53,950 bases of DNA from Chthoniobacterales bacterium (GTDB lineage: Bacteria; Verrucomicrobiota; Verrucomicrobiia; Chthoniobacterales; JACTMZ01): NCBI GenBank assembly GCA_021463515.1, contig JAJTYZ010000138.1, positions 1 through 53,950 on the forward strand, read 5' to 3'. Shown one piece after another: positions 2,458-50,055 of this stretch. The notes beneath the pieces are model-generated. The model did not search any database. It was not told the DNA's origin and was given only the letters and a program-made list of their open reading frames with translations. A program made the position numbers and the translations under genes. How positions within the stretch are numbered: the stretch's first letter is position 1; every line of letters starts with the position of its first letter.

Positions 2458-2485
2458 ATTCTCTAATACGTTCGATTTCTGTCAA
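2458..2485 (-). promoter_or_regulatory. Promoter of the two-TM protein gene
   Basis: Minus-strand TTGACA (2480-2485, perfect -35), 16-bp spacer, GAGAAT (2458-2463), then 8 nt to the ATG at 2449. The transcript is predicted to be leaderless or nearly so. This decides the start codon of the gene. Confidence 0.55.
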
Positions 2486-2586
2486 GGCGGAGGGACAGCT
2501 CCTCCGGGGAAAAATTTTTATCACCACCTACGCAAGGCATCGCTCATCCTAACGTTCGTGTCTCTCGCTTCATCCTTGGATTCCGC

Positions 2587-2614
2587 TTGCTCCATGAACG
2601 AAGCCTTTTACGCT
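2587..2614 (+). promoter_or_regulatory. proC promoter
   Basis: TTGCTC (2587-2592), 16-bp spacer, TACGCT (2609-2614), then 7 nt to the proC ATG at 2622. The 7-nt interval is too short for a conventional leader. Confidence 0.5.
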
Positions 2615-2621
2615 TTGAGAG

Positions 2622-3431
2622 ATGAAGGTTGGCATCATTGGCTGTGGGAAAATGGGCTCTGCGCTGGCACGGGGAATGTTGGCGGCTCATGTGTGTACTC
2701 CCGAAGAATTGCGCGTTTGTGATCGCGAATCGGAGATCGCCGCTAAGCTCTCCAACGAAATTGGTGCCTCGTTATTTTCCGATGCCCAAAGCTTAGCCCT
2801 CGCCTCGGAGGTTATTCTTCTCTGCGTAAAGCCTGACGATGTTCGATCCGTTCTCCATGACGCCGCAATCGAGCTTTCTAGCAAACTCCTCATTTCCATC
2901 GTCGCCGGAATCACGCTCGCCTCGCTCCAAGCACTGACCCCGCGCACCCGCGTGGTGCGCGTGATGCCCAATACGGGCGTACTTGTCCAAAAAGGTGCTA
3001 CCGCTTATGCCACGGGAACCGGAGTGACGGACACGGACGCAGATATTGTCAGAAAGATTTTTTCTTCCGTCGGTCTCGCTTTTGCGGTGAAAGAATCGCT
3101 TTTGGATGCTGTGACGGGATTAAGCGGCAGTGGACCTGCGTACGTTTATCTTTTTATCGAGGCACTATCGGATGGCGGTGTACAAATGGGGTTACCCCGC
3201 AATCTCGCCACGAGTCTTGCGTTACAAACTGTCGCCGGTGCTGCAGAAATGGTCGCTCAAACGGGAATGCACCCTGCCGTTTTACGTGACATGGTGACAA
3301 GCCCCGGGGGAACAACCATCGCAGGGCTGGCAGAATTAGAACGCACCGGAATGCGAGCGTCTGTTATTGACGCTGTACGAGCAGCCACCTTGCGCTCGCA
3401 AGAATTGGGAGACCCGCGTGCGAACCGCTAA
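2622..3431 (+). CDS. proC: Pyrroline-5-carboxylate reductase
   Basis: The enzyme reduces 1-pyrroline-5-carboxylate to proline with NAD(P)H, the last step of proline synthesis. The length of 269 residues is normal. The N-terminal Rossmann motif is GIIGCGKMGSALA (residues 4-16). VMPNTG (about residue 115) and the C-terminal dimerisation signature TGLSGSGPAYVYLFIEALSD (about 164-183) are intact. proA lies 21 kb away in another operon and proB is absent from the window. The 3' end overlaps the following TPR gene by 14 nt. Confidence 0.95.
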   Translation: MKVGIIGCGKMGSALARGMLAAHVCTPEELRVCDRESEIAAKLSNEIGASLFSDAQSLALASEVILLCVKPDDVRSVLHDAAIELSSKLLISIVAGITLASLQALTPRTRVVRVMPNTGVLVQKGATAYATGTGVTDTDADIVRKIFSSVGLAFAVKESLLDAVTGLSGSGPAYVYLFIEALSDGGVQMGLPRNLATSLALQTVAGAAEMVAQTGMHPAVLRDMVTSPGGTTIAGLAELERTGMRASVIDAVRAATLRSQELGDPRANR

Positions 3432-7102: not shown

Positions 7103-7117
7103 ACGATTTCGTGGTGT

Positions 7118-10325: not shown

Positions 10326-13300
10326 ATGCCTAAACGTCACGACATTAAAAAAGTTCTCATCATCGGTTCGGGCCCCATCGTCATTGGTCAAGCCTGCGAG
10401 TTCGATTATTCGGGAACCCAAGCATGCAAATCCTTACGCGAACTTGGCTACAAGATCGTTCTCGTCAACTCCAATCCGGCAACAATCATGACAGACCCCG
10501 GCATCGCCGATGTCACCTACATTGAGCCGCTCACCGTTCCCTCGCTCACTGAAATCATCGCCAAAGAACGCCCCGACGCGTTGCTCCCAAATCTCGGAGG
10601 ACAGACCGCACTAAATTTATCCTCGCAGCTCGAGCAGGCGGGAGTTTTGGAGAAGTACAATGTGCGCATCATCGGCACCGGGAGTGAGGCTATCGAAAAG
10701 GGCGAAGACCGAATTATTTTTAAGGAAACGATGAAAAAGCTGGGTATTGATATGCCCCGTAGTTCGCCTGCCTACAGCGTGCAAGAAGCGGAAACCATCG
10801 CGGGAGAACTCGGCTATCCTGTCGTTATTCGTCCCGCCTATACGATGGGTGGAACGGGCGGAGGTTTGGTTTACAATGTGGAGGAATTACGCACCGTGAC
10901 GGCTCGTGGCATTTCCGCGAGCATGGTCGGACAGGTTCTCGTTGAGGAGTCCGTGCTGGGCTGGGAGGAATTGGAATTAGAGGTTGTGCGCGATGAGAAA
11001 AATCAGCTCATCACCGTGTGTTATATCGAAAACGTGGATGCCATGGGCGTTCATACTGGCGACTCCTACTGCGTCGCTCCGATGCTCACCATTTCTCCCG
11101 AACTTCAAGCGAAATTGCAGGATTATGCTTACCGCATCGTGTCGGCGATTGGCGTCATTGGCGGAACCAATACCCAATTTGCGCACGATCCTAAAACGGG
11201 CCGTGTTGTCATTATCGAAATCAATCCGCGTACCTCGCGCTCGTCGGCACTTGCCTCCAAAGCGACGGGATTCCCGATTGCCTTGGTTTCCGGAAAACTC
11301 GCGGGCGGCCTCACCCTCAACGAAATTCCCTACTGGCGCGATGGTACTTTGGAAAAATACACGCCCTCCGGCGATTATGTAGTGGTTAAATTCTCCCGCT
11401 GGGCTTTTGAAAAGTTCCATGGTGCGGAGGACAAACTTGGCACGCAAATGCGGGCCGTGGGCGAAGTGATGAGCATCGGCAAAACATACAAAGAGGCTTT
11501 TCAAAAAGCGATTCGCTCGCTCGAAAACGGTCGTCATGGCCTTGGCTTTGCCAAAGACTACAATGGCAAATCGCTTCCCGAGTTGATGGACCTCCTCACC
11601 GATCCATCCAGCGAACGTCAATGGATCATGTACGAAGCTCTACGCAAAGGAGCCACCGTGGCGGATCTTCATGCCAAGACACACATCAAGGCCTGGTTTA
11701 TTGAGCAAATGAAGGAACTCGTCGAACTCGAAGAGGAAGTCCTGAGCACCAAAGGAAAACAACTTCCCGATGATCTTCTCATTCGTGCGAAGAAGGATGG
11801 TTTTGCCGACAAATACCTGGCCAAAATTCTTAATGTTTCCGAAGCATCCATTCGCAAGCAACGCCTCGAAGCAGGCCTTCTCGAAAGTTGGGATGCCCTG
11901 CCAGTCAGTGGCGTAAGCTATGATTCCGCCTATTACTACTCGACCTACAACCGCCCCGATGCCGTCGAGGTTTCCTCGCGCAAAAAAATCATGGTTCTCG
12001 GCGGTGGCCCCAACCGCATCGGTCAGGGAATCGAGTTTGACTACTGTTGTGTTCATTGCGCTCTCGCTCTTCGCGAAGCGGGATACGAAACCATCATGGT
12101 CAATTGTAACCCCGAAACCGTTTCCACCGACTACGACACGTCCGATCGCCTCTACTTTGAGCCACTCACCGTGGAGGACGTCCTCAGCATTTACGCGAAG
12201 GAAAAACCCGAGGGCGTGGTGGTGCAATTTGGCGGACAAACTCCGCTCAATATCGCCCGCGAACTTGAAGCTGCTGGCGTCAAAATCCTTGGTACAGCTC
12301 CTGACGTCATTGACCTCGCGGAAGATCGCGATCGTTTCCGCAAGATGATGGAAAAAATGGACATCCCGATGCCCGCCTCGGGAATGGCCAGCACCTTTGA
12401 AGAAGCTCGCGAAATCGCTGCCCGCGTCGGTTATCCCGTCATGGTGCGTCCGTCCTTCGTCCTCGGCGGACGCGGCATGGAAGTTGTCCATGACGAAGAA
12501 ATGCTCCGCCGCTATGTCGCTGCTGCGGCCGATGTGACACCCGAACGCCCGCTCCTCATTGATCACTTCCTCGACAATGCCATTGAGGCGGAGGCCGATG
12601 CTTTGGCGGATGGTACGGATGCTTTTGTTCCAGCAGTGATGGAACATATTGAACTCGCAGGCATTCACTCCGGTGATTCTGCGTGTGCGATTCCGCCGGT
12701 TACGCTCTCCAAAAAACATATCCGCACCATCGAAGAATACACCCAACGCATCAGCAGTGAACTCGGCGTGTGCGGCGTCATGAACATCCAATACGCCGTG
12801 AGCGACGATAAAGTCTATGTGCTTGAAGCCAACCCTCGCGCCTCACGCACGGTTCCGTTGGTCAGTAAAGTCTGCAACATCCCGCTCGCGCGCATTGCAA
12901 CTCAGCTCATGCTGGGAACAAAACTCAAAACTCTCAACCTCCGGCATAAAAATATCCCACATATCGGCGTGAAAGAAGTCGTGTTGCCATTCAACATGTT
13001 TCCTGAAGTTGACCCCGTGCTTGGACCGGAGATGCGCTCCACCGGCGAGGTGCTTGGCATGGCACCGTCCTTCGGATTGGCCTATTTCAAGGCTCAAGAA
13101 GCGGCGGGGTCAGCACTCCCTCTCGAGGGCACTGTATTCATTTCCGTCGCCGATCGAGATAAGGCGGACATCCTCGATGTTGCCAAACAATTTACCAACC
13201 TCGGCTTCAAGATTAAAGCAACCGAAGGCACATGTGCATTTTTCCACTCTCATGATGTTGCCAGTGAAATCAGCCACAAATACCACGAAGGCCAACGCCC

Positions 13301-13532
13301 AAATATCGCGGACGAAGTAGTCAATGGCGAAATATCTCTCGTTATCAATACACCCGCAGGGAAATCCAGTGCCTCCGATGACACCTACATTCGGAAACTA
13401 GCCATCAAGCACAAGATTCCGTATATTACTACTCCCGCAGCAGCCCGCGCTTCTGCCTTGGGGATTGCCGCAGCTCGTGCGGGCAAATCCAAAATAAAAT
13501 CCCTGCAAGAATATCATGGCGATATTGGCTAA
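10326..13532 (+). CDS. carB: Carbamoyl-phosphate synthase large subunit
   Basis: The ATP-dependent subunit makes carbamoyl phosphate for arginine and pyrimidine synthesis, using ammonia delivered from the small subunit CarA. The 1068 residues are full length. Two homologous ATP-grasp halves are visible, starting LIIGSGPIVIGQACEFDYSG (residue 12) and MVLGGGPNRIGQGIEFDYC (about residue 555). The C-terminal MGS-like allosteric domain (about 940-1068) is present. carA is not in the window, so the two subunits are encoded apart. The channel gene follows after 33 bp on the same strand. Confidence 0.97.
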   Translation: MPKRHDIKKVLIIGSGPIVIGQACEFDYSGTQACKSLRELGYKIVLVNSNPATIMTDPGIADVTYIEPLTVPSLTEIIAKERPDALLPNLGGQTALNLSSQLEQAGVLEKYNVRIIGTGSEAIEKGEDRIIFKETMKKLGIDMPRSSPAYSVQEAETIAGELGYPVVIRPAYTMGGTGGGLVYNVEELRTVTARGISASMVGQVLVEESVLGWEELELEVVRDEKNQLITVCYIENVDAMGVHTGDSYCVAPMLTISPELQAKLQDYAYRIVSAIGVIGGTNTQFAHDPKTGRVVIIEINPRTSRSSALASKATGFPIALVSGKLAGGLTLNEIPYWRDGTLEKYTPSGDYVVVKFSRWAFEKFHGAEDKLGTQMRAVGEVMSIGKTYKEAFQKAIRSLENGRHGLGFAKDYNGKSLPELMDLLTDPSSERQWIMYEALRKGATVADLHAKTHIKAWFIEQMKELVELEEEVLSTKGKQLPDDLLIRAKKDGFADKYLAKILNVSEASIRKQRLEAGLLESWDALPVSGVSYDSAYYYSTYNRPDAVEVSSRKKIMVLGGGPNRIGQGIEFDYCCVHCALALREAGYETIMVNCNPETVSTDYDTSDRLYFEPLTVEDVLSIYAKEKPEGVVVQFGGQTPLNIARELEAAGVKILGTAPDVIDLAEDRDRFRKMMEKMDIPMPASGMASTFEEAREIAARVGYPVMVRPSFVLGGRGMEVVHDEEMLRRYVAAAADVTPERPLLIDHFLDNAIEAEADALADGTDAFVPAVMEHIELAGIHSGDSACAIPPVTLSKKHIRTIEEYTQRISSELGVCGVMNIQYAVSDDKVYVLEANPRASRTVPLVSKVCNIPLARIATQLMLGTKLKTLNLRHKNIPHIGVKEVVLPFNMFPEVDPVLGPEMRSTGEVLGMAPSFGLAYFKAQEAAGSALPLEGTVFISVADRDKADILDVAKQFTNLGFKIKATEGTCAFFHSHDVASEISHKYHEGQRPNIADEVVNGEISLVINTPAGKSSASDDTYIRKLAIKHKIPYITTPAAARASALGIAAARAGKSKIKSLQEYHGDIG

Positions 13533-19034: not shown

Positions 19035-20158
19035 CAGGACACCGACGCAAGAACTCCGCGATTTACCAACCCCTCCCGATCAAGTTCGCGCAGAGCGGTC
19101 ATGAACGCTTTATTTTGCGGCATCGTTCCGACGGACACACGAATCCACTCGGGCAACCCATAACTTCCCATGGCCCGCACAATGATTCCACGTCGCAAAA
19201 GTGCCTCAAAAATCTTTTTTCCATCCCCCACTCGCACAAGAACAAAATTGGCATAACTCGGAACGTATTCAAGCCCCATCGCGAGAAATTCCGATTGCAA
19301 AAAGTTGCGCCCTTCCTTCGTCACACGCCGCGTTTCCTCCATGTGTGCGCCATCACCTAATCCCGCTAAGGCACCCGCTTGAGCAATGCCATTGGTATTA
19401 AATGGCTGACGCGTTTTTTGCAGCACTTCGATAATTTCCGGTGCCGCTAATCCATAACCGATGCGTAAATTCGCGAGTCCCTGAATTTTAGAAAACGTCC
19501 GGAGCACTACCACATTTCGGCCTGCGCGAACGTACTGAAGAACATCCGGTGCTTCATCAAGAAACTCGTAATAAGCCTCGTCAAAAACCACCATCACATG
19601 GGGAGGCACACGTTCCATAAAACGATCAATCGCCTCCTGAAACACCATCGTGCCAGTAGGATTATTCGGATTGGCAATAAACACTTCCTTCGTACGCGAC
19701 GTGATCGCCGCCAGCATCGCGTCAAGGTCATGCACAAACCCCGGGTCCGGCACATCAATGACTTTTGCGCCGAAAAGTTGTGCCATCAGGCGATAGACAG
19801 CAAAGGAATGTTCTGCCACGACAATTTCATCATTTGGCTGCAAATACGCATGTCCAATGAACTCGATGATTTCATTCGAACCACTTCCCAAAATCACATG
19901 CTTCATGGTCAATCCGGTTTTCTCCGCAATCGCCTCCCGCAAATAATATGCGCCGCCATCCGGATAAAAATGTGCTCGTCCCAAAGCCTCTTCCATCGCC
20001 TGACGCGCCTTAGGCGAAGGGCCGAGCGGGTTTTCATTCGAGGCGAGTTTAATAATTTCTTCGGGTTCAATACCCAATTCTCGAGCTAAATCCTCCACCG
20101 GCTTACCAGGTTCGTAAGAAAGGAGTTCCCGTAGTTGCGGGTTTGCATATTTCCACAT
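19034..20158 (-). CDS. hisC: Histidinol-phosphate aminotransferase (class II PLP aminotransferase)
   Basis: It converts imidazole acetol phosphate and glutamate to histidinol phosphate in histidine synthesis. The motifs are LASNENPLGPSPKA, YPDGGAYYLREAIAE, IANPNNPTG, VFDEAYYEF and the PLP lysine in RTFSKIQGLANLRIGYG. From ATG 20158 (MWKYANPQLREL) it has 374 residues; the frame extends to 20200 without homology. A TAAAGT hexamer ends 8 nt before this ATG and could be its -10, though no good -35 is visible. It heads the hisC-mnmE-pyrD-yihY operon. Other his genes are absent from the window. Confidence 0.93.
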   Translation of the reverse strand: MWKYANPQLRELLSYEPGKPVEDLARELGIEPEEIIKLASNENPLGPSPKARQAMEEALGRAHFYPDGGAYYLREAIAEKTGLTMKHVILGSGSNEIIEFIGHAYLQPNDEIVVAEHSFAVYRLMAQLFGAKVIDVPDPGFVHDLDAMLAAITSRTKEVFIANPNNPTGTMVFQEAIDRFMERVPPHVMVVFDEAYYEFLDEAPDVLQYVRAGRNVVVLRTFSKIQGLANLRIGYGLAAPEIIEVLQKTRQPFNTNGIAQAGALAGLGDGAHMEETRRVTKEGRNFLQSEFLAMGLEYVPSYANFVLVRVGDGKKIFEALLRRGIIVRAMGSYGLPEWIRVSVGTMPQNKAFMTALRELDREGLVNRGVLASVS

Positions 20159-20221: not shown

Positions 20222-20251
20222 TTGAGCCTGTGATATTTTGCGTCATACTAT
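20222..20251 (+). promoter_or_regulatory. Promoter of the inhibitor-thiG operon
   Basis: TTGAGC (20222-20227), 18-bp spacer, TACTAT (20246-20251), then 8 nt to the ATG at 20260. Expected transcription start is at or within 2-3 nt of the start codon. Confidence 0.55.
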
Positions 20252-20259: not shown

Positions 20260-20943
20260 ATGAATCGCATTGCCCTGTTTGCATTTTTTTTGTCAGCAGT
20301 AGGACTTCTTCATGCTCAAGAAGCTTCACCCACGCCGATTCAGATTTTGGAAATTTCCGCGAATGATCCTTTGGCCGCCTCCAACGCACCACCGAAAGCC
20401 AATCCCAAAATGGATAAGGAGGTGGACTTGACGAAAACAGCCAATGCGCCCGATCCCTTCGCGATTGAGCCGCCAACGGACATACCCCATCCAGATAAAA
20501 TCCCGGAACTTACCGGTCCGCTTCCGGATGAAGACGATCAGCCAGCATTACCCGCCATCAATGGCACCGTCGAAATTACCGCCAAGGACAATACCCACAT
20601 CATCACCGCTCAAGTTGGCAATCTCATTCGCATCATCCTCGAATCCAATCCCAGCGCGGGGTACAATTGGGAGTTGTATGATTTTAAATTTGGTATCGCG
20701 GTCTTTCATAGCAGCGAACTCGTTCCGCGCGATACCGGCAATGTGCTTTTCGGTGCTCCGGGTGACACCGTCGTAACACTTCAAGCAATTGAGCAGGGCT
20801 CTCAGACAATTGCGCTTATTTATCGCCGCCCTTGGGAACCCGTAGATCAAGCTGTTGCCCGCTTTGCATTTCGGCTCGAAGTCATCAAACCTGCGGAGAC
20901 TCCGGCCCCACCTCCAACGACATCACCTTTACCTACACCATGA
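20260..20943 (+). CDS. Secreted chagasin-family (I42) cysteine-protease inhibitor
   Basis: A signal peptide (residues 1-19, cut after LHA) is followed by a Pro/Asp-rich spacer to about residue 100 and a C-terminal chagasin domain. All three inhibitory loops of the I42 family are recognisable: [10 protein letters not shown] (130, for NPTTGYxW), GAPG (165, for GxGG) and YRRPWEP (188, for RPW). Such proteins block papain-like cysteine proteases, either the cell's own or foreign ones. The predicted location is the periplasm. The long spacer is unusual for bacterial members, which are often about 120 residues. The stop overlaps thiG in ATGA, an unexpected operon partner. Confidence 0.8.
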
Positions 20944-23906: not shown

Positions 23907-25175
23907 TCACTCACGCACCTGGCCCGTTCCCTCAACGAGGTATTTGTAAGTCGTCAATTCCTCCAATCCCATAGGCCCCCGTGCATGCAGCTTGTCCGTA
24001 CTAATCCCAATCTCCGCTCCGAAACCAAATTCTCCCCCATCGCTAAATCGCGTGGAGGCATTCCACAACACCGTCGCAGAATCTACGGCGGCAAGGAACT
24101 TTCGCGCCGCAATTTCATCCGCCGTCACAATCGCATCGGTATGATGCGAGCCATAATTCTCGATGTGTTCAATCGCTTCCTCCAACGAATCCACCACGCG
24201 AATACTCAAAATAAGTTCGAGATACTCGGTCGTCCAATCTGCCTCCGTCGCTGCCTCAACGGCGTCTCCTAAAACAGCACGGGTTCGTTCGTCACCTCGT
24301 AAGACGACCCCTTCTTTACACAAAATTGCAGCTGCCGATGGGAGAAATTTTTCGGCAATATCACGATGAACCAACACCGTTTCCGCCGCGTTGCAAACAC
24401 CCGGACGCTGACATTTTGCATTAGCCACAATGGTTTTCGCCATGGCCAAATCTGCGGCTTTATCCACAAACACATGACACACCCCGTGGTAGTGCTTAAT
24501 CACAGGCATCCGTGCGTACTCGACGACGGCTTCAATCAACGCTTGGCCTCCACGCGGAACAATCACATCGAGATAACGATCCATTTGCGCCAACAATCGC
24601 ACCCCTTCGTGATCGGTGAAGGAGACAAGTTGAATCACATCTGCGGGAAGACCCGCGTTGACGGCACCGGCGGACAATGCTTTGGCGATCGCTAAATTCG
24701 AATGCAACGATTCCTTTCCTCCTCGCAAAATGCAGGCATTTCCCGATTTGAGGCAAAGCACCGAGGCATCTGCCGTCACATTAGGACGAGATTCGTAAAT
24801 GATTCCCACCACGCCAATGGGCACTCGAATTTTGATAATTTTGATCCCGTTTGGACGTGCCCACTCACGAATAATTTCCCCCACAGGGTCCGGCAAAGCC
24901 ACCACCTCTCGCACCCCCTTTGCCATGGCACAAAGACGCTCCGGCGTAAGTCGTAAACGATCCACCGCAGCGGCATTGAGTCCGTAACCGGCTGCAGCCG
25001 CCAAATCCTGAGCATTCGCCGCCATGATTTCCGCCTCTGCTGCTTCAATGGCATCCGCCATCGCCATCAAAGCCGCATTTTTTTTCTCCCTCGTACACAA
25101 AGCCAGTGCCCGCGCCGCTGCCCGCGCTTTTCTTCCCATGTTTTCAATTTGAGCCGCCAAAGATTCGGTTTCCAT
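23907..25175 (-). CDS. proA: Gamma-glutamyl phosphate reductase
   Basis: It reduces gamma-glutamyl phosphate to glutamate semialdehyde for proline synthesis. Family motifs are [32 protein letters not shown], the catalytic cysteine in [14 protein letters not shown], and [32 protein letters not shown] (key part [12 protein letters not shown]). The length is normal at 422 residues. I used ATG 25175; two GTG codons lie immediately upstream in frame. A promoter ends 8 nt before this ATG. It heads the operon proA-acyP-ABC-GT9. proB is absent. Confidence 0.96.
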
Positions 25176-25183: not shown

Positions 25184-25212
25184 ACTATCCTCTTTCCTCC
25201 GCTCAAAAACAA
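25184..25212 (-). promoter_or_regulatory. proA promoter
   Basis: Minus-strand TTGTTT (25207-25212), 17-bp spacer, GATAGT (25184-25189), then 8 nt to ATG 25175. A purine-rich GGAGGAAAGAGG lies within the spacer rather than in the leader, so it cannot act as a ribosome-binding site if this promoter is used. Confidence 0.5.
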
Positions 25213-25219: not shown

Positions 25220-25248
25220 TTGGCCGATGCACAAGCGGACTGTATAAA
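25220..25248 (+). promoter_or_regulatory. tsaE promoter
   Basis: TTGGCC (25220-25225), 17-bp spacer, TATAAA (25243-25248), then 8 nt to ATG 25257. It is back to back with the proA promoter, with -35 boxes 7 bp apart, so the two may compete or share control. Confidence 0.6.
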
Positions 25249-25256: not shown

Positions 25257-25673
25257 ATGTCCATTTTCACCACCGCATCGCCGGACGAAACAACCGCCAT
25301 TGGACAAACGTTGGCGGGCAAGCTTCCCCACGGTTCTACGATTGCGCTGCGCGGCGCGTTGGGGGCGGGAAAAACCTGCTTTACCCGTGGTCTCGTTGTG
25401 GGCTGGGGTGGAAGTGATATGGCTACAAGTCCAACGTTCACTCTTGTCCATGAATACTCAACCCAACGCGGCCCTGTTTTTCATCTCGATTTATACCGCG
25501 CTGATACAGCGGAAGAAATTTGGACGGCGGCATACGATGAGCTAAACACGTCGAACGGTCTGGTGATCCTTGAATGGGCGGACCGATTTCCAGAGCTTGT
25601 TCCTGCTGAGGCCATCCACGTTGACATTACGGACATCGGCAAGGGAAAACGCCGCATTACCATCACACCGTGA
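25257..25673 (+). CDS. tsaE: tRNA threonylcarbamoyladenosine biosynthesis ATPase
   Basis: The ATPase partner of the TsaB-TsaD complex that makes t6A37 in ANN-decoding tRNAs. Walker A is RGALGAGKTCFTRG (about residue 33). SPTFTLVHEY, HLDLYR and ILEWADRF are typical. Its 138 residues are normal. It is coupled to tsaB by a GTGA overlap. tsaD and tsaC are elsewhere. Confidence 0.94.
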   Translation: MSIFTTASPDETTAIGQTLAGKLPHGSTIALRGALGAGKTCFTRGLVVGWGGSDMATSPTFTLVHEYSTQRGPVFHLDLYRADTAEEIWTAAYDELNTSNGLVILEWADRFPELVPAEAIHVDITDIGKGKRRITITP

Positions 25674-26290: not shown

Positions 26291-26319
26291 TTGACCTGAA
26301 ACACTCGATTCTGTAAAGC
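26291..26319 (+). promoter_or_regulatory. ptsI promoter
   Basis: TTGACC (26291-26296), 17-bp spacer, TAAAGC (26314-26319), then 8 nt to ATG 26328. The -10 is weak, but spacing and -35 are good and the interval matches other promoters in this window. Confidence 0.5.
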
Positions 26320-28137: not shown

Positions 28138-29463
28138 ATGCGCCTCTCCGAAATTCGAACCGCGCTCGACATCCTTTCTCTCCTCCCCGCAAAAAGTCTC
28201 GGACAAAATTTTCTCCATGACATCAATCTTGCCCGTACGATCGCTCGATCCGCGATTCCGGAAGCCGTTCCCTTCGCCGTAGAAATCGGCCCGGGTCTCG
28301 GCTCTCTCACAATCCCTTTGCTAGAACGTTGCGATAAACTTTTGCTCCTTGAAAAAGACGCCCGACTCGCTAAGTGGCTCACCGAGCATCTTCCTGCCGA
28401 TCGCGTAGAAGTGATCTGCGCCGACGCCATTCGCTTTGATTGGAAACCGCTTTTACAGCACGGGCCCTTCCCCCTCGCTGGCAATCTTCCTTACTACGCA
28501 ACCTCGCCCATTCTTCGTAATTTTCTCGTTCCGTCGTCGCCCGTCGCACGTGCCACATTTGTGGTGCAGGATGAATTCGCCATGCGCCTTGCCGCAAACC
28601 CCGGCCATGCCGATTACAGTGCCCTCACCGTGCGCATCCAACGCCTCTGGTCCGTGCGCCGCGAACGTTTATTGCCACCCTCCGTTTTTTACCCCACACC
28701 CGGCGTCACCTCGTCACTCGTCACGCTCGAACATCGACCACCTCGCACCTTCCCTCCTGTGCGAGGAACATTTTTTGATGAAATTGTTCAGCGCGGATTC
28801 GGGCAGCGTCGCAAACAACTACGTTCGCTCCTCGGCATCGCCCCGGCGACATGGGCACTATGGTGCGGGAAACACGGATTGCCTGTCACCACACGCGCTG
28901 AAAACCTTTCCGTTGCCCTCTGGGTGGATCTCGCACGAACTATGGATGCACTCGGCAATTCTGAGGCACAGTTAGGGGAAGAAATTTTTGACGTTGTGGA
29001 TAAAAACAATCACGTCATGGCGCGAGAGCCACGTGATTTCGTTCATGCAAATAACCTTCTTCATCGCGCGGCCCACATTCTCGTCTTCAACGAGCAAGGC
29101 GAAGTCCTTTTGCAAAAACGCTCCGCATGGAAAGATCGAGCACCACTTCTCTGGGATTCCAGTGCCGCCGGACATCTCAACACCGGAGAGACCTACATTG
29201 CAGCCGCACAACGTGAAGCCGAAGAAGAACTCGGGGTTACGCTCACACTGCATCCCCTAGGAAAACTTCCCGCAAGCAGTACCACTGGCCACGAATTTGT
29301 CGAAGTTTTCACCGCCAAGCACGAAGGCCCCTTCACTCTGCCACCGGCGGAAATCGAAGCCGCCAAATTTTTTCAACCCTTCCTCATTGATGCCTGGCTT
29401 AAACAACGTCCCCAAGACTTTGCCCCCGCGTTTCCCGAAGTCTGGAACCTCACGAAAGGGTAA
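28138..29463 (+). CDS. rsmA: RsmA (KsgA) 16S rRNA dimethyltransferase fused to a Nudix hydrolase
   Basis: Residues 1-275 are a complete RsmA, which dimethylates A1518 and A1519 of 16S rRNA. Visible are LGQNFL (21), SAM loop EIGPGLGSLT (49), acidic LEKD, and catalytic NLPYYATSP (116). Residues about 280-425 form a Nudix domain close to the isopentenyl-diphosphate isomerase-like subfamily (EIFDVVDKNNHV at 282). It carries a perfect Nudix box at 345-367, GHLNTGE through REAEEELGV. RsmA is usually about 270 residues and single-domain, so the 441-residue chain is a fusion. The linker (271-281) has no stop or frameshift. The Nudix substrate is unknown. Confidence 0.92.
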   Translation: MRLSEIRTALDILSLLPAKSLGQNFLHDINLARTIARSAIPEAVPFAVEIGPGLGSLTIPLLERCDKLLLLEKDARLAKWLTEHLPADRVEVICADAIRFDWKPLLQHGPFPLAGNLPYYATSPILRNFLVPSSPVARATFVVQDEFAMRLAANPGHADYSALTVRIQRLWSVRRERLLPPSVFYPTPGVTSSLVTLEHRPPRTFPPVRGTFFDEIVQRGFGQRRKQLRSLLGIAPATWALWCGKHGLPVTTRAENLSVALWVDLARTMDALGNSEAQLGEEIFDVVDKNNHVMAREPRDFVHANNLLHRAAHILVFNEQGEVLLQKRSAWKDRAPLLWDSSAAGHLNTGETYIAAAQREAEEELGVTLTLHPLGKLPASSTTGHEFVEVFTAKHEGPFTLPPAEIEAAKFFQPFLIDAWLKQRPQDFAPAFPEVWNLTKG

Positions 29464-37512: not shown

Positions 37513-37541
37513 TTGACGGGTTAAAAACTTAGAAGTACGCT
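37513..37541 (+). promoter_or_regulatory. Promoter of the epimerase-aldolase operon
   Basis: TTGACG (37513-37518), 17-bp spacer, TACGCT (37536-37541), then 10 nt to ATG 37552. A leader of at most about 4 nt is expected. Confidence 0.55.
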
Positions 37542-37551: not shown

Positions 37552-38595
37552 ATGACGCCTCATGTCTCCACAAAATTGCCGTGTTTGCCCGAAGAAGCGG
37601 ATGAATTTTTGAGTATTCCGCTGCCGCAAGTTGTGGAATCTTTGGCAAAGGGATCGGGAAATTATCTCGTGTTGGGCGCAGGGGGGAAAATGGGATTTCA
37701 TATGTGCCGCATGTTACGGCGAGGATTGGATGAAGGAGGTTTGCCAGGGCGTGTGATTGCTGTCTCGCGTTTTGGCAATCCTGCAGACCGTGCAGATTTT
37801 GAATCCGCAGGAATTGAAACGCTCTCCGGCGACCTCTCGACGCCCGTCGGCGTAGAAAGCGTCGAACCCGAGGAAAACGTGATTTTTATGGCCGGCGCAA
37901 AATTTGGAACCTCGGGGCGTCCCGATATTTTGCAAATAATGAATGTCGAGATGCCGCAGTTGGTCGCGGAGTATTTTCATCACTCCCGCATCACGGCATT
38001 TTCCACAGGCTGCGTGTATTCTTTTGTCCCTGCTGATTCTTCAGGTTCCACGGAGGACGCACCTACCAACCCCGTGGGAGAATATGCGATGTCTTGTCTC
38101 GGACGGGAGCAGGCTTTCCGTACGGCTTCGCTGCGGCATGGAACAAAAGTCGTGCTTATCCGCCTCAACTACGCCGTCGAATTTCGCTATGGTGTTTTGG
38201 TGGACATCGCTGCAAAGGTTTTGCGCGGTGAACCGGTGGATGTGGGAACCGGGCGTGTGAATTTGATTTGGCAACGCGATGCGATTGCTCACACGATTCA
38301 AGCACATGCCTTAGCCGCCAGCCCCGCTCTGCCCATCAACATCACTGGTCCGCGCTCTTACAAAGTACGAGATTTAGCGGAACATTTTGGAAAAATTTTT
38401 GGCCGTACTCCAACATTTTCCGGCGAAGAGGCAGAAGAAATTTGGCTGGCGGATGCCTCCCGATCTCATGAACTTTTTGGACTTCCCCCCATTGAACTCG
38501 ATCTCATGATTAACTGGGTGGCGGCATGGCTCACAGGCGGTCACCCCATTCTTGGAAAACCCACCGGATTTGAAAAGCGCGATGGAAAATTCTAA
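37552..38595 (+). CDS. NAD-dependent epimerase/dehydratase-family protein with altered active site
   Basis: An extended-SDR protein of 347 residues. The nucleotide loop is VLGAGGKMGFHMCRML (about residue 41). The beta-4 region NVIFMAGAKFG and the serine motif FSTGCVYSF follow. The expected YxxxK dyad reads EYAMSCLGREQ, so the catalytic Lys is replaced by Cys. The substrate part has LIWQRDAIAHTI and the family-typical NITGPRSYKVRDLAEHFG. The fold is clear, but the missing Lys argues against ordinary epimerase chemistry. It overlaps the aldolase-like gene by 14 nt. The pair may process a sugar acid. The long N-terminal extension before the Rossmann loop (about 35 residues) is unusual. Confidence 0.8.
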   Translation: MTPHVSTKLPCLPEEADEFLSIPLPQVVESLAKGSGNYLVLGAGGKMGFHMCRMLRRGLDEGGLPGRVIAVSRFGNPADRADFESAGIETLSGDLSTPVGVESVEPEENVIFMAGAKFGTSGRPDILQIMNVEMPQLVAEYFHHSRITAFSTGCVYSFVPADSSGSTEDAPTNPVGEYAMSCLGREQAFRTASLRHGTKVVLIRLNYAVEFRYGVLVDIAAKVLRGEPVDVGTGRVNLIWQRDAIAHTIQAHALAASPALPINITGPRSYKVRDLAEHFGKIFGRTPTFSGEEAEEIWLADASRSHELFGLPPIELDLMINWVAAWLTGGHPILGKPTGFEKRDGKF

Positions 38596-39710: not shown

Positions 39711-39860
39711 TTAGCTCGCGGAACCCTGTTCGGTTTTATCTTTGTCCTTACAGTTATCCTTGTCCTTGTCGCCATCAGAACAGCACTTTCCAGCGAAGGT
39801 TGTGGTAGCGAATGCGGCCAAAGCGATGGCCATTACAGCTAGTGTAAGCAGGTTTTTCAT
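39711..39860 (-). CDS. Short secreted Cys/Lys/Asp-rich peptide
   Basis: A 49-codon gene below common length cut-offs. MKNLLTLAVMAIALAAFATT is a clear signal peptide with likely cleavage after TFA (residue 23). The mature part of 26 residues starts GKCCSDG and continues with a DKDKDNCKDKDK stretch containing a third Cys. A promoter (TTGAAC-18-TCTTAT) ends 7 nt before the ATG, and a terminator lies close past the stop. Signal peptide, promoter and compact Cys/Lys/Asp composition support a real gene. The Cys and acidic residues could bind metal; the function is unknown. Confidence 0.65.
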   Translation of the reverse strand: MKNLLTLAVMAIALAAFATTTFAGKCCSDGDKDKDNCKDKDKTEQGSAS

Positions 39861-39867: not shown

Positions 39868-39897
39868 ATAAGACCACATCTACGCGAGAATGTTCAA
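39868..39897 (-). promoter_or_regulatory. Promoter of the secreted-peptide gene
   Basis: Minus-strand TTGAAC (39892-39897), 18-bp spacer, TCTTAT (39868-39873), 7 nt to ATG 39860. Confidence 0.5.
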
Positions 39898-40580: not shown

Positions 40581-40710
40581 ACGTCATCACCCTACTCAAA
40601 AATTATGAAAGATGCAGTGAAAAAATGGGGGCGTGAAACAGCCCTAGTCAATCCACAGAGCCGATGTGAAGCCGCACAAAAGGAGGCGTTCCGAGTTATT
40701 CCGCGATATC

Positions 40711-42951: not shown

Positions 42952-42980
42952 TTGCCATGCGGCGATTCGTTTTCTACAAA
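42952..42980 (+). promoter_or_regulatory. pyc promoter
   Basis: TTGCCA (42952-42957), 17-bp spacer, TACAAA (42975-42980), then 10 nt to ATG 42991. It lies inside the longer open frame beginning at 42943, which shows that the upstream ATG is not the start. Confidence 0.55.
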
Positions 42981-42990: not shown

Positions 42991-45900
42991 ATGTCGAAAT
43001 TACCACGCCCTTCCATACCCAATCCGCAGGAAAAATCCGTCAGCGTGGCGGGCCGCACGTTGCTTGTCGCCAATCGTAGCGAAATTGCAATCCGTGCTTT
43101 TCGCGCCGCCAACGAACTCAATATGCGTACGGTGGCTATTTATGCCGATGAAGACCGCTTCTCCATCCATCGCTTTAAAGCGGATGAAGCCTATGTCGTC
43201 GGACATGGAAAAGGTCCGGTCGGCGCGTATTTGGACATCGAAGGCATCGTCGGCCTCGCCCGTGATTGCCGCGCAGAAATGATTCATCCGGGTTACGGAT
43301 TCCTTGCGGAAAATGCAGAGTTTGCCAAAGCCTGTGATGAAGCGGGAATAATATTTGTCGGGCCGCGTCCGGATCTGCTTGAAATGATGGGCGACAAAAC
43401 AGCGGCACGGGCCGTAGCCATTGACGCGGGAGTCCCTGTATTGCCTGGCACCGAAGAGCCGGTAGAAAACCGCACCAAGGCGTTGCGCGTGGCGCGGCAA
43501 ATTGGTTTTCCTCTCATCATTAAAGCAGCATTTGGCGGAGGCGGACGCGGGATGCGCGTGGTTCACAAAGAAAGTGATTTGGCTTCGCTTCTCGACGAAG
43601 CACGCAATGAAGCGGGACGCGCTTTTGGAAATCCCGCCGTGTTTTTGGAAAAATACATCTCGCGAGCCAAGCACATCGAAGTGCAAATTCTCGGAGATTC
43701 TCACGGTAATGTCCTCCACTTGCACGAACGCGATTGCTCGGTGCAACGTCGTCATCAAAAAGTCGTGGAGGTCGCGCCGTCCATTGGTTTGCCGGATGCT
43801 GTCCGTACTGATCTCTGCAACGCCGCCGTCGAAATCGCACGCCGCATTGGCTACAACAACGCGGGAACCGTTGAGTTTCTTTACGATGCAGATCATCACG
43901 AATGGTTTTTCATCGAGATGAATCCACGCATTCAGGTCGAGCATACGGTGACCGAGCAAATCACCGGCATTGACCTCGTGCGCTCGCAAATCCTCGTCGC
44001 CGCAGGGGCGAAACTTCACGGCCCCGGACTTGAACTCCCCACGCAAGAAAGCATCCCGCGCAATGGGTTTGCGGTGCAATGTCGTATTACCACGGAAGAC
44101 CCCGCCAATAAGTTCATGCCAAACTATGGTAAAATCGTCACCTACCGCAGTGCTGCCGGCTTTGGCGTTCGGTTGGATTCCGGCATGGGAACAACAGGCA
44201 GCGTAATCACGCCCTTTTACGATTCGCTTTTGGTGAAGGTGACCACTTCGGGTCAAACTTTCCCCATTGCCCTGCAACGTATGCACCGCGCCTTACGTGA
44301 ATTTCGGATCCGTGGCGTCAAAACAAACATTCCATTTTTAGAAAATGTGGTGACCGATCCCGTGTTTAAATCCGGCGGTGCCACAACGACATTCATTGAT
44401 AATACGCCCCAGCTTTTTGACTTTAAACCACGCCGAGATCGTGCCACGAAGCTGATGCAGTTTTTGGCGGATGTAACCATCAATGGCAATGCGGAGGCCA
44501 AAGGCTACAAACCCAGTGCTGTCTTTGAACTCGCTCCCGTGCCCACTCGCGACCTGCGCCTAACGCCGCCGGAAGGTTCGCGTCAGAAATTGCTGGAACT
44601 CGGCCCCGAAAAGTTTGCGGCATGGACGCGCCAGCAAAAGCGCGCCCTTTTCACCGACACGACATTTCGTGATGCGCACCAATCGCTGCTAGCCACGCGC
44701 GTTCGCAGTCATGACATGCTGCTCGTGGCCGATGCGGTGGCACGACGAACCCCTCGACTTTTCAGCCTCGAAATGTGGGGAGGCGCAACCTTTGACGCCT
44801 CGATGCGTTTTCTGCGCGAAGACCCGTGGGAGCGACTTCGTACGCTGCGTCTACGTGTCCCGAATATCTGCTTTCAAATGCTGCTGCGCGGGTCCAACGC
44901 CGTGGGCTATTCCAACTACCCGCCCAATGTCGTCGAGGGCTTTGTGAAACATGCGGCGGAAAGTGGCATGGATATTTTTCGGGTTTTCGATTCCCTCAAC
45001 GATCTCTCCAACATGCGTGCGGCGATGGAGGCCGTACGAAAAGCAAACGGCGTTTGCGAAGGAGCTTTTTGCTATACGGGGGATATACTTGATCCCGCAC
45101 GTACAAAGTTTTCGCTTCAATATTACGTTCGCCTCGCTCGTGAATTGGAAAAAATGGGGGCGCATTTTTTGGGGATTAAAGACATGGCCGGACTTTGCCG
45201 CCCCTTCGCCGCACGTGCCCTCGTGAAAGCTCTGCGTGCAGAAACGGACCTGCCCATTCATTTTCACACGCATGATACCAGCGGATTAAATGCAGCATCG
45301 GCTCTTGCGGCAATCGATGCGGGTGCGGATGTGGTGGATGCTGCTATTTCCTCGATGTCGGGGTCCACGTCGCAGCCAAACCTCAACAGTCTTGTAGCCG
45401 CGTTACAGCACACACCGCGGGATTCCGGTCTCGATCTCGCTGCGCTCAATGAATTCGCCGATTACTGGGAAAAAGTACGTGAGTTTTATGCGCCATTTGA
45501 TACGGCACCGCGTTCGGGAAGTGCCGAAGTTTATTTGCATGAGATGCCCGGAGGACAATTTACGAATCTCAAGGAGCAAGCAGCCTCCATGGGATTGGCA
45601 CGTCGCTGGCCGGAAATCGCCCGTTGCTATGCGGAGGTCAATAAGCTCTTTGGCGATATCGTGAAGGTCACGCCTTCCAGCAAAGTCGTAGGAGATATGG
45701 CACTCTTCCTTTTTACGCGCGGAATCAAACCAGCGGATGTTCCGAATCTTCCGGCAGGCACACCCTTTCCGGAGTCCGTGAAAGACATGCTATCCGGGGG
45801 ACTCGGAGAACCCGTGGGCGGATGGCCTGCGAACGTCGTCGCTGCCGTTCTTGGCAAAGCCCCACGCAAGCCCTCCCGTGCTCCTAAAGTGAACCTCGGT

Positions 45901-46587: not shown

Positions 46588-46609
46588 ATTTTTTCTTCGG
46601 AGAAAAAAT
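46588..46609. terminator. A+T-rich hairpin with TCGG loop after pyc
   Basis: ATTTTTTCT-TCGG-AGAAAAAAT forms a perfect 9-bp stem 112 bp past pyc and 5 bp before the IS remnant. It could stop transcription in either direction, but the stem lacks G+C and pyc is far away, so this is uncertain. Confidence 0.35.
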
Positions 46610-46614
46610 CTAAC

Positions 46615-47076: not shown

Positions 47077-47208
47077 GAAATAATTATGATAGGAATACGT
47101 CAAAATTTTCTAATTGGGGCAAAGGCATAGATATCGCCCATGATAATAAAGGCACTCAAATTTAAGTTAAACATTGTTTCTTGATAGGTATCGCCTTTAG
47201 ATGGAAGG
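47071..47208. other. A+T-rich spacer after the IS remnant
   Basis: This 138-bp A+T-rich stretch lies between the IS remnant and the convergent copA. It contains two similar motifs, ATATCGCCC and GTATCGCCT, but no gene, terminator or clear repeat. Its composition differs from the flanking genes, suggesting it came with the insertion. Confidence 0.35.
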
Positions 47209-49332
47209 TTAATGGCTCTGTTTAAATTTTCTTAGGCGCAGCGCGTTGGTGATGACGGAGACGGAGCTTAAACTCATAGCGGCACCGGCGATCATGGGGC
47301 TGAGCAGCCACCCCGTTAGCGGATAAAGCGCCCCCGCCGCCAGCGGAATGCCAAGAACATTGTAAGCGAAGGCGAGAAAAAGGTTTTGGCGAATGTTGCG
47401 CATGATGGCACGCCCCAGAGCGAAGGTGCGGACAATGCCATCGAGCGAACCGTGGATGAGAATAAAATCCGCTGATTCCTTCGTCACATCACTCCCTGCC
47501 CCCATCGCGATGCTGGTGTCAGCAATCGCCAACGCCGGTGCATCATTCACACCGTCTCCCGTCATACAAACCTTTCGCCCCTCGTCCTGCATTTTGCGAA
47601 TGACCTCGACTTTTCCTTGAGGATTTAGCGCAGATTGATACTCCGTGATGCCCAATTCCCCCGCAACACGTCGTGCGACATCTTGACGATCTCCCGTAAG
47701 CATCACCACACGCAAACCGGATTTCCGTAAAGTTTCGAGGGCAATAACAGCGGAGGGCTTAATTTTATCATCCAAAAAGAGTGATCCCATCCACTGTCCA
47801 TTCTCTGCCACATCCACCCGCGTTCGCCCGTGGTTTTGTTTTTCCACCGTTGTTGTCGGTGCGCCCGTAAATTCCGGTGTGCCGACTTTAATCATTTTCC
47901 CGTCGAGAGTTCCTTGCACTCCTCCTCCCACTGTGGACACAAATTCATTAACGGGTAGGAGCGTCAATCCCCGTTCCTGAGCGACACGAACAATCGCAGC
48001 GGCTAAGGGATGTTCGCTATGGGCTTCAAGGGACGCCGCCACCGTCAATAAACGTTCTTCATTAGAACTCGATGCCACAACGATATCCACCACCTCAGGG
48101 CGTCCCTCCGTAAGCGTTCCGGTTTTATCGAGGCAAAGCGTGTCCGTTTTTTCAAGTGCTTCCAAGGCGGCAGGCTGACGCACAAGCACTCCATTGCGTG
48201 CGGCGCGTCCTACGCCCACCATGATGGACATAGGCACTGCCAATCCTATGGCGCAGGGACAGGCAATGATGAGAACAGCAACGGCGGCTGTCATCGCCGC
48301 CGCAAGAGAGCCGGAAAAAATGATCCACGCAAGAAAAGCAATAACGGCGGATGCCACGACAGCGGGAACAAAGATGGAGGCAACCCGATCTGCCAAATCC
48401 TGTACGGGAGCGCGACCGCGTTGTGCTTGCGCGACGAGTTCCACAATCCCCGCCAAAAGCGTATCGCTTCCCACCGCCTCCGCTCGCAAATCAAAACTTC
48501 CGGCACCATTGATTGTTCCAGCCCGCACAGAAGAATCCACCTGCACTTCCACGGGCCAAGGCTCACCCGTCATGAGCGATTCATCCACGGTGCTTCCACC
48601 TGCAACAACAACGCCATCCACAGGCACCTTACCTCCCGGACGCACCCGCAAAATATCACCCGCGACAATTTGTTCCAAAGGCACCTCCCCCAGCGATCCA
48701 TCTGTCGCTATTTTCCATGCCGTCGCCGGAGCCAAATCCATAAGGCTCCGCAACGCATCCCCTGTTTTCCTCATCGCCCGCAGCTCCATCACCTGCCCTG
48801 CCAACACGAGGGTAATAATCACCGCCGCCGCTTCGAAATACACGCCCTCGGCATGAAACGCCGCCGGCCACAACATCACGACCATGCTAAAACCCCATGC
48901 GGCCAATGTTCCCGTGGCGATGAGAGTGAACATGTTGGCAGAACGATTTTTTAACGACTGCCAGCCACGGCGCAAAAACGTCCATCCGCAGCCAAACAAG
49001 ACAATGCCGCTCAGCACTGCCTGAATGATGTGGGACGCTGTTCCTTCCGCCCAATGTGCGAATGTCGTGCCGTGCGCCCAGTGCGCCATGCCAAGCACAA
49101 ACACCGGCAGAGAAAGCAGTGCCGCAATCACCAGCCGCCATGTCATACGCCGCAGCTCGGCACTGTCGGCAGCAGGGTCCGGTGCGCCCATGGGCTCCAA
49201 GGCCATACCACATAAAGGGCAATCTCCCGGCATTTCCTGCACAATCTCGGGGTGCATTGGGCATGTGTAAGGGCCGCTTGCACCATCACGCTTTGACGCA
49301 GGCGTGTGTTGTTGATGACAGCAACTACTCAT
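47209..49332 (-). CDS. copA: Copper-translocating P1B-type ATPase
   Basis: It exports Cu+ across the inner membrane. From ATG 49332 (MSSCCHQQHT) it has 707 residues; the frame extends to 49386 without homology. The N-terminus has no HMA domain but a heavy-metal-binding motif PYTCPMHPEIVQEMPGDCPL followed by CGMALEP. Then come eight transmembrane helices, metal-site CPC in IACPCAIGLAVPM, phosphorylation site DKTGTLTEGRPE, the HP motif in SEHPLAAAI, and GDGVNDAPALAIAD. The C-terminal helix has MSLSSVSVITNALRL, typical of P1B-1 copper pumps. No copper regulator is next to it. Confidence 0.93.
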   Translation of the reverse strand: MSSCCHQQHTPASKRDGASGPYTCPMHPEIVQEMPGDCPLCGMALEPMGAPDPAADSAELRRMTWRLVIAALLSLPVFVLGMAHWAHGTTFAHWAEGTASHIIQAVLSGIVLFGCGWTFLRRGWQSLKNRSANMFTLIATGTLAAWGFSMVVMLWPAAFHAEGVYFEAAAVIITLVLAGQVMELRAMRKTGDALRSLMDLAPATAWKIATDGSLGEVPLEQIVAGDILRVRPGGKVPVDGVVVAGGSTVDESLMTGEPWPVEVQVDSSVRAGTINGAGSFDLRAEAVGSDTLLAGIVELVAQAQRGRAPVQDLADRVASIFVPAVVASAVIAFLAWIIFSGSLAAAMTAAVAVLIIACPCAIGLAVPMSIMVGVGRAARNGVLVRQPAALEALEKTDTLCLDKTGTLTEGRPEVVDIVVASSSNEERLLTVAASLEAHSEHPLAAAIVRVAQERGLTLLPVNEFVSTVGGGVQGTLDGKMIKVGTPEFTGAPTTTVEKQNHGRTRVDVAENGQWMGSLFLDDKIKPSAVIALETLRKSGLRVVMLTGDRQDVARRVAGELGITEYQSALNPQGKVEVIRKMQDEGRKVCMTGDGVNDAPALAIADTSIAMGAGSDVTKESADFILIHGSLDGIVRTFALGRAIMRNIRQNLFLAFAYNVLGIPLAAGALYPLTGWLLSPMIAGAAMSLSSVSVITNALRLRKFKQSH

Positions 49333-49398
49333 GGCGTTACGAGCAGTTAAAACCAAAACGCAAGATAAACCCAACGAAAAGGCCACGAACTTCCATCA

Positions 49399-49426
49399 TG
49401 GTCAAAATTGCCTTCACGTTTACAAT
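49399..49426 (+). promoter_or_regulatory. Promoter of the Nudix gene
   Basis: TACAAT (49421-49426) ends 8 nt before ATG 49435. A moderate -35, TGGTCA (49399-49404), lies 16 bp upstream. It supports the ATG at 49435 over an in-frame upstream start at 49408. Confidence 0.5.
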
Positions 49427-49434
49427 CCTTCGCC

Positions 49435-50055
49435 ATGACCGCCACCGAAGAAAATATCCTTGTCGTCCCCCGTCGTGTTTTCGATGAAATTGGAGCCTTT
49501 GACGGACTTTGTTTTGACATTGCCCGTTACATGCCTGCGCTCCTCGATCCGAACAACAATCTCTTTCTGCCCCGCGCCGCAGCAGAAAACGATCCTTCCT
49601 ACAAGCAACTCATCCCCTATCTCATCATCCGTCACGGCAACCGCGTCCTGCGTTACACCCGTGGAAAATCCGGTGGTGAAGCGCGACTTCACGCAAAAAT
49701 TTCCATCGGCATTGGCGGTCACATCAACGAGGGAGACACACACGCTCAACACTTCGACACTGCCGCTTACGAACGCGCGGTCGAGCGAGAATTGCACGAA
49801 GAGCTCACAATTTCTGGCACGTATCGTCAACACGTTGCGGCGTTGCTCAATGACGACGAAACACCCGTCGGGCGGGTTCACCTAGGCATTGTGCATGTGA
49901 TTGACATGGATTCGTCCGACATTAAGTCGCATGAAGATGCCATAAGCGACATGGCCTTTGTCACGGCAACCGAACTCGAATCCCAACGAGACCACCTGGA
50001 AAATTGGTCCCGCCTCTGCCTCGACGCCCTTCCTCTTCTCCTCCAAGAAAATTAG
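49435..50055 (+). CDS. Nudix-superfamily phosphoesterase-like protein
   Basis: A 206-residue protein with a variant Nudix box. GIGGHINEGD is followed by a roughly 10-residue insertion and then AVERELHEELTISG, preserving the RExxEE core. N-terminal FDGLCFDIARYMPALLDPNN and RHGNRVLRYTRGKSGGEARL resemble the MutT-like group COG4112, often called predicted phosphoesterase. VHLGIVHVIDM and the C-terminal part complete that family. The substrate is unknown. It is divergent from copA and convergent with the pilC-like gene. Confidence 0.8.
   Translation: MTATEENILVVPRRVFDEIGAFDGLCFDIARYMPALLDPNNNLFLPRAAAENDPSYKQLIPYLIIRHGNRVLRYTRGKSGGEARLHAKISIGIGGHINEGDTHAQHFDTAAYERAVERELHEELTISGTYRQHVAALLNDDETPVGRVHLGIVHVIDMDSSDIKSHEDAISDMAFVTATELESQRDHLENWSRLCLDALPLLLQEN

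Follow-up and report, generated by a model that had tools for sequence, protein, structure and literature searches.

Where would transcription begin in bacterial genes whose -10 box ends only 7-10 nt upstream of the start codon? The question is raised by a contig of 53,950 nucleotides (JAJTYZ010000138.1, assembly GCA_021463515.1; hereafter the window) from a Chthoniobacterales bacterium of the phylum Verrucomicrobiota, in which ten genes had been listed, from the letters of the DNA and its open reading frames (ORFs), as preceded by promoters of this kind (hereafter the original prediction). The distance between the -10 box and +1 is about 7 nt. We consider it highly probable that, in the genus to which the window belongs, a sizeable minority of the genes opening a transcription unit (first genes) is preceded by near-start promoters for the housekeeping sigma factor, giving leaderless or near-leaderless mRNAs. 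According to this reading, the promoters would lie so near the coding sequence that the first transcribed base would be the A of the start codon itself or a base 1-4 nt upstream; the resulting mRNAs would carry no Shine-Dalgarno (SD) site, and their translation would presumably proceed via a 5' AUG (or GUG) recognized directly by 70S ribosomes, or by 30S subunits with the initiator tRNA. Some operon-internal genes would instead rely on SD sequences and/or on stop-start overlap. What the DNA shows is a promoter-like motif with its position and spacing, its conservation at several genes, no SD enrichment at the first genes of two genomes and an intact anti-SD in relatives; where transcription starts, which sigma factor acts and how the ribosome initiates are inferred.

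Genome-scale position of -10 boxes, promoter pairs and Shine-Dalgarno sequences

The window is one whole contig of a metagenome-assembled genome (MAG) of 2.11 Mb, made up of 140 contigs and 66% complete. The sample drawn from this MAG comprised 973 kb in 81 records, in which a dicodon model blind to upstream sequence called 737 genes; 699 of these had enough upstream DNA, and 382 were first genes, that is, genes with a divergent neighbour or separated by 50 nt or more from a neighbour on the same strand. Applied to Escherichia coli, the dicodon caller found 40 of 47 annotated genes and placed the annotated start in 28 of those 40. It was used in place of a single-codon caller, dropped for its insensitivity (378 genes only). 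A second sample of 600 kb was taken from G003, a genome of the same genus which holds locus L003 (G003 and G023, also of this genus, give identical hits, and so do G001 and G021). The loci L001-L080, to which some of the counts below refer, all contain the pyruvate carboxylase gene pyc and are thus not independent of it.

In the MAG, the pattern TANNNT ending 6-8 nt before the start was observed at 41 first genes against 13.0 expected (n=382; P 5e-10), and the count was 40 vs 12.4 when the 5'-most in-frame ATG was taken as the start; no excess was detected at internal in-frame ATGs, of which 4844 were scanned (101 observed, 105.6 expected). In G003 the count at 6-8 nt was 26 vs 3.7 (n=257; P 3e-14), and over the wider range of 5-13 nt it was 51 vs 11.0. 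An excess at 6-8 nt was also found in the nearest 12 loci, with 7 vs 1.2 (n=86), and in a set of 62 Verrucomicrobiota loci of higher GC content, with 19 vs 6.6 (n=462). The same pipeline yielded no peak in 200 kb of E. coli K-12 (2 vs 5.7; n=98) and a peak, mainly at 6-7 nt, in 150 kb of plasmid MP1 of Deinococcus radiodurans (11 vs 1.5; n=73). The genome-wide distribution of -10-to-start distances, proposed originally as a check and expected to peak near 8 nt, does show a clear maximum above background, which in the MAG and in G003 spans 6-8 nt and tails off at about 12-13 nt rather than lying exactly at 8. The motif was commoner at first than at operon-internal genes, without being exclusive to the former (41/382 vs 14/206 in the MAG, 26/257 vs 5/169 in G003), the operon-internal genes of the MAG having a smaller excess of their own (14 vs 4.1; n=206). 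ATG was the start codon in 38 of 41 first genes led by TANNNT vs 336/382 first genes overall in the MAG, and in 21/25 vs 205/257 in G003, proportions that do not clearly differ.

The second line of evidence concerns the pairing of this motif with a -35 hexamer. Pairs matching at least 8 of the 12 consensus bases and ending 6-9 nt before the start were present at 33 of 380 first genes of the MAG, vs 8, 11, 2, 4 and 7 in five intervals more distant from the start, and at 18 of 251 in G003, vs 2, 2, 4, 5 and 0 at five control distances. A scan of distances to 84 nt, compared with dinucleotide shuffles, returned 140 pairs vs 102.2 in the MAG (n=252 genes), including 22 vs 6.1 at 5-9 nt, and 45 vs 25.2 in G003 (n=170), including 12 vs 1.8 at 5-9 nt; this narrow interval embeds 42% and 52%, respectively, of the total pair excess. 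The counts at 5-9 nt were 1 vs 3.7 in E. coli (n=81) and 3 vs 0.9 in D. radiodurans MP1 (n=66). With a fixed -10 model, the mixing fraction adjoining the start was 0.039 in the MAG and 0.193 in G003, vs 0.009 or less at six control offsets. The trinucleotide TTG was enriched at the -35 position of the TANNNT-led genes of the MAG (12/41 vs 7/69; P 0.011).

As for the SD sequences, first genes displayed no enrichment at positions -20 to -4 in either genome (63/382 vs 63 in the control region in the MAG; 39/257 vs 39 in G003), and SD-like 4-mers were found in 3 of 41 TANNNT-led genes of the MAG, the control region of these genes having 11, and in 4 of 25 vs 7 in G003. The signal recovered by the same pipeline in E. 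coli was strong (55/98 first genes, with 9 for the control region). The coexistence of two modes, which had been suggested for the window, is supported by the operon-internal genes, which exhibit a modest SD peak (8, 13, 10 and 8 occurrences at 8-11 nt vs 3.2 in the MAG; 12, 14, 11 and 11 at 7-10 nt vs 3.8 in G003); 80 of 206 and 80 of 169 of them, respectively, are in -4 or -1 overlap with the gene before them. The 16S rRNA genes of three relatives carry GGATCACCTCCTTTCT, with CCTCC kept in all three, so that the anti-SD is intact there; in the MAG itself and in the other 10 of the 13 related genomes searched no 16S gene was found, the search being one that misses some (a complete genome is among these).

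Predicted promoters of the window and their conservation within the genus

Family matches name five of the ten listed genes as proC (start 2622), proA (25175, minus strand), tsaE (25257), ptsI (26328) and pyc (42991). The genes at 20260 and 37552, encoding a chagasin-family inhibitor and an epimerase-like protein, respectively, also match above the Pfam cut-off, the NUDIX-like gene at 49435 matches below it, and the 89-aa ORF at 2449 (minus strand) has no Pfam or NCBIfam match. This last ORF and the one at 39860 (minus strand; 49 aa) are short and were both missed by the gene caller. The window holds 24 called first genes, so the ten listed earlier are a subset; strict TANNNT at 5-13 nt occurs in 7 of the 24, including the gene at 20158 (minus strand) and ribE (start 40580, minus strand). 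The latter had been regarded as a gene that seems to have an ordinary leader; it has TAGGGT at 40589-40594, ending 8 nt before its ATG.

For each listed gene we looked for a -10 whose second base is A and whose end lies 7-10 nt from the start codon, paired with a -35 across 16-18 bp, using 500 mononucleotide shuffles per gene as background. Such a pair, matching 6-10 of the 12 consensus bases, is present in nine of the ten genes, 39860 being the exception, and is individually significant (P<0.05) in seven. The interval of exactly 8 nt, said to recur in six cases, does so among these nine (2449, 20260, 25175, 25257, 26328 and 49435). The interval had been described as free of SD sequences; eight genes have no SD-like 4-mer at -20 to -4, whereas in the other two such a 4-mer overlaps the -10 of the gene at 25175, and AAGG directly follows the -10 of the gene at 42991. 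It is likely that most of the listed genes undergo leaderless or ultrashort-leader transcription.

We describe first the four promoters whose near-start box recurs in every same-genus row compared. The proC promoter (2587-2614, plus strand) consists of TTGCTC (2587-2592) and TACGCT (2609-2614), with a 16-bp spacer and 7 nt to the ATG at 2622. All 10 rows (the window plus nine same-genus genomes, G021 being omitted for a copy at a contig edge) have strict TANNNT (TACGCT, TACGTT, TACCTT or TAGGGT) ending 6-7 nt upstream of the start, and the relatives have TTGC(C/T)C about 16 bp upstream of the -10, the spacer differing between rows. The proC start is fixed by a TIGR00112 match beginning at residue 3, and in G016, where the start codon is GTG, the 7-nt distance is unchanged. 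The ptsI promoter (26291-26319, plus strand; TTGACC, spacer 17, TAAAGC, 8 nt to the ATG at 26328) corresponds to TAAANN or TACANN 7-9 nt before the ATG in 11 of 11 rows (the window plus ten same-genus genomes), none of which has strict TANNNT; TTGAC(C/G) stands 17 bp upstream in the window and in five of the ten relatives, and C-rich DNA in the others (all by eye). In G030 and G040 (loci L186 and L191), genomes of 0.9 Mb from the same order, each in a single contig, the ptsI ATG is preceded at 8 nt by the end of (C/T)ACAAC, and TTACTT stands about 18 bp further upstream (both by eye).

The tsaE promoter (25220-25248, plus strand) is formed by TTGGCC and TATAAA, separated by 17 bp, with 8 nt to the ATG at 25257; in 9 of 9 rows the start codon, ATG or GTG, has a -10-like box at 6-11 nt, strict in six rows and mostly accompanied by an upstream TTGGCC. 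In the case of the NUDIX-like gene (49399-49426, plus strand; TGGTCA, spacer 16, TACAAT, 8 nt to the ATG at 49435), all nine rows have strict TANNNT at 6-11 nt, and most of them also have DNA resembling TGGCCA upstream of it. These last two genes were searched in eight of the ten same-genus genomes, so that both sets comprise the window plus eight genomes. At control distances of 25-32 nt, such a box was present in no row of proC, ptsI, tsaE or the NUDIX-like gene. The relatives belong to one genus and some are near-identical (L254/L255, L266/L267; L247 is a duplicate of L246), hence ratios such as 10/10 or 11/11 are not independent counts; their start codons were picked by hand from in-frame candidates. 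The MAG and G003 shared 74 reciprocal best hits, of which 31 had matching starts, and nine first-gene pairs, too small a set for a column-wise conservation profile.

Divergently from tsaE, proA is preceded by TTGTTT (25207-25212) and GATAGT (25184-25189; whole promoter 25184-25212, minus strand), with a 17-bp spacer and 8 nt to the ATG at 25175. In 10 of 10 same-genus relatives TTGGAC...GATATT ends 8 nt (in one, 9) before the start (by eye), strict TANNNT occurring in 2 of 11 rows; the region surrounding GATATT in the relatives is conserved as well as GATATT itself. The pyc promoter (42952-42980, plus strand) consists of TTGCCA and TACAAA with a 17-bp spacer, 10 nt before the ATG at 42991, and among the 12 nearest loci five (L001-L005) have TACAAA or TAGAAA at 5-10 nt. 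The nearest relatives at this locus in named genomes are L001 (89% identity) and L002 (86%), from Verrucomicrobia and Chthoniobacterales MAGs, which places the lineage in Verrucomicrobiota, near Chthoniobacterales. Some MAG records labelled Akkermansia muciniphila, Klebsiella pneumoniae or Proteobacteria (L013, L020, L023 and others) hold a pyc 71-73% identical to that of the window, and for this reason their names look wrong.

The remaining promoters of the list are those of the chagasin-family gene (20222-20251, plus strand; TTGAGC, spacer 18, TACTAT, 8 nt to the ATG at 20260), of the epimerase-like gene (37513-37541, plus strand; TTGACG, spacer 17, TACGCT, 10 nt to the ATG at 37552) and of the 89-aa ORF (2458-2485, minus strand; TTGACA at 2480-2485, spacer 16, GAGAAT at 2458-2463, 8 nt to the ATG at 2449), the last having the top pair score (10/12). 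The element claimed for the 49-aa ORF at 39860 (39868-39897, minus strand; TTGAAC, spacer 18, TCTTAT, 7 nt) lacks the A at the second position of the -10 and is the weakest of the ten. Among the other genes of the window, carB (10326-13532, plus strand) was not used as a comparison gene, its identity being 89% to the copy of G021 but about 50-55% to those of seven further genomes of the genus, a split which suggests a gene replacement. The gene at 28138-29463 (plus strand) appears as a fusion of a 16S rRNA dimethyladenosine transferase domain (PF00398, residues 19-269) and a NUDIX domain (PF00293, residues 308-417).

Alternative explanations and their likelihood

Several observations weigh against the idea of near-start promoters, or restrict its reach. 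No significant TANNNT peak was detected in six lower-GC loci (5 vs 2.4; n=51) or in IMCC26134 (6 vs 3.6; n=157), and in the MAG the first genes with the clearest start calls (score margin above 4; n=63) gave only 6 vs 2.6 (P 0.046). The excess of the strict motif corresponds to about 10% (MAG; 69 vs 30.4 at 6-12 nt) to 16% (G003) of the called first genes; this share is probably an underestimate, since starts are miscalled (28 of 40 right in E. coli) and many likely boxes are not TANNNT. De novo motif discovery by expectation-maximization (EM) did not recover a -10 in the MAG or in G003: in the former the likelihood next to the start was no better than in shuffled or control regions, and in the latter it reached 99.0 next to the start vs 44.9-77.7, but the motif learned was not a -10. 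Fixed patterns with controls were used in place of this approach. In G003 the TTG at -35 was not significantly enriched (8/25 vs 4/23; P 0.2), and the MAG has a second, unexplained excess of pairs at 45-54 nt (24 vs 9.4), absent from G003 (4 vs 3.3). SD sequences are not entirely missing from first genes either: in the MAG the 4-mers rise slightly at spacings of 7-10 nt (9, 11, 9 and 8 vs 6.0 per position; 37 vs about 24), with no such rise in G003, and in the 12 nearest loci 22 of 86 first genes carry them vs 10. Concerning single genes, the pairs at 2622 (P 0.158) and 25175 (P 0.060) are above the 0.05 level and 39860 has none; no box precedes proA in G039 (L269), the one genome fetched from another family. 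A further weak point of the original interpretation is that the box of pyc and that of the epimerase-like gene are not conserved in position in most relatives: seven of the 12 nearest pyc loci have no box at 5-12 nt (L006-L008 and L012, and L009-L011, in which TATAAR sits 20-21 nt before the ATG, by eye), and only one of three relatives has a near-start box at the epimerase-like gene. This pattern indicates that leader length is not fixed for every gene, even among near relatives.

A short leader is the core of the strongest competing explanation, i.e., that transcription starts 3-10 nt before the start codon and that a short unstructured leader, possibly with the help of S1, recruits the ribosome, truly leaderless mRNAs being a minority. 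The tail of the TANNNT distribution to 12-13 nt, to be compared with the 6-7 nt prevailing in D. radiodurans MP1, speaks in its favour, as do the displaced TATAAR of pyc in L009-L011, the AAGG after the pyc -10 of the window and the tsaE distance, which is 8-11 nt in most rows, so that some transcripts may carry 1-4 nt. The peak itself, however, lies at 6-8 nt, proC keeps its box at 6-7 nt in all rows, and the TANNNT-led genes show no SD enrichment; we regard short leaders as the prevailing mode as possible but rather unlikely. The tail, together with the variable distances of tsaE and pyc, suggests a mix of leaderless and ultrashort leaders. A bolder version of our own reading, in which such transcripts would be the default at first genes and SD initiation, despite an intact anti-SD, would have retreated to operon-internal genes in a split almost complete by operon position, seems to us doubtful.

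The A/T-rich element might also not be a promoter at all, acting as a non-SD signal for ribosome recruitment as proposed for Bacteroidota. The absence of an SD signal at the first genes of two genomes would fit this idea, and so would the smaller TANNNT excess at the operon-internal genes of the MAG; yet the element has the pattern of a -10, a TTG-type hexamer accompanies it at 16-18 bp, proC, tsaE and the NUDIX-like gene maintain both hexamers while the spacer drifts, and the frequency of the element is higher at first than at operon-internal genes in both genomes. This makes the hypothesis very improbable. Even less credit, in our opinion, can be given to chance combined with selective reading, according to which short degenerate motifs always match somewhere near a start. 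That ten genes were listed out of a window with 24 called first genes, that three of the ten pairs are individually non-significant and that the positions of pyc and of the epimerase-like gene are not conserved in most relatives count in its favour; as a general account it is contradicted by the independent samples, by the internal-ATG, distance and E. coli controls and by the four conserved genes, although it may apply to single listed genes such as 39860.

We prefer the reading of near-start promoters at a sizeable minority of first genes; as a whole, the original interpretation is partly supported. Its central proposal, that sigma-70-type promoters would place the transcription start at the start codon or within about 4 nt of it, is favoured by the genome-scale statistics, by the controls and by the conservation of several genes.

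Relationship to known leaderless systems

The original prediction had also held that widespread leaderless transcription from such promoters was not well described in a lineage of this kind. Judged by title or abstract opening, we found no report of leaderless transcription in Chthoniobacterales in the open-licence literature; nevertheless, the claim of novelty is weakened by what is available for the phylum and for bacteria in general. In Akkermansia muciniphila from mouse caecum, Cappable-seq placed 10% of the high-confidence transcription start sites at annotated gene starts, with -35 and -10 elements visible (PMC4782308). That organism belongs to the same phylum and to a different order, and its leaderless starts were measured, whereas those described here are predicted from DNA; in the parts of that account available to us, SD sequences and conservation among orthologues are not analyzed. 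The scarcity of SD sequences has been tabulated as well: the mRNAs with a functional SD amount to 10% in the class Spartobacteria and 15% in Methylacidiphilae, vs 74 in Bacilli, and A. muciniphila and IMCC26134 are named as SD-scarce with a conserved CCUCC (PMC10783764, Table 1 for the class values). The available portions of that paper connect this scarcity neither with operon position nor, for this phylum, with promoters of the leaderless type. Leaderless genes as such are well documented across bacteria (PMC3160421, PMC12340547). Zheng et al. predicted in 2011 leaderless genes in 207 of 953 bacterial genomes, with 8 of 20 genomes and an average of 7.8% in the category "Other Bacteria" (PMC3160421). 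Their TA-led genes share with ours the definition by sequence, a TA-like signal about 10-12 bp upstream and the pattern TANNNT; the strings Verruco-, Akkermansia, Opitutus and Methylacidiphilum do not occur in the main text of that article (PMC3160421).

If our reading is correct, gene-start prediction based on SD sequences would often be wrong in this group, and many promoters could be read straight off the start codons. The leaderless transcription measured in Akkermansia would extend to another order of the phylum, and the published SD scarcity of Spartobacteria would acquire a reason at the promoter level. A lineage with an intact anti-SD and no SD enrichment at first genes would also be useful for testing how ribosomes choose their starts.

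A close likeness is with Deinococcus-Thermus, where leaderless genes with a "-10 region adjacent to ORF" account on average for about 30% of the ORFs (PMC12340547). The two systems have in common a TANNNT a few nt before the ORF, and in Deinococcus-Thermus a -35 element raises expression (PMC12340547, as far as the available text goes). They differ in that the peak described here is broader and 1-2 nt further away from the start (6-8 nt plus the tail), in that the first genes of two genomes show no SD enrichment, and in the phylum itself. The genus to which the window belongs is, in this respect, a new lineage for an already known mode.

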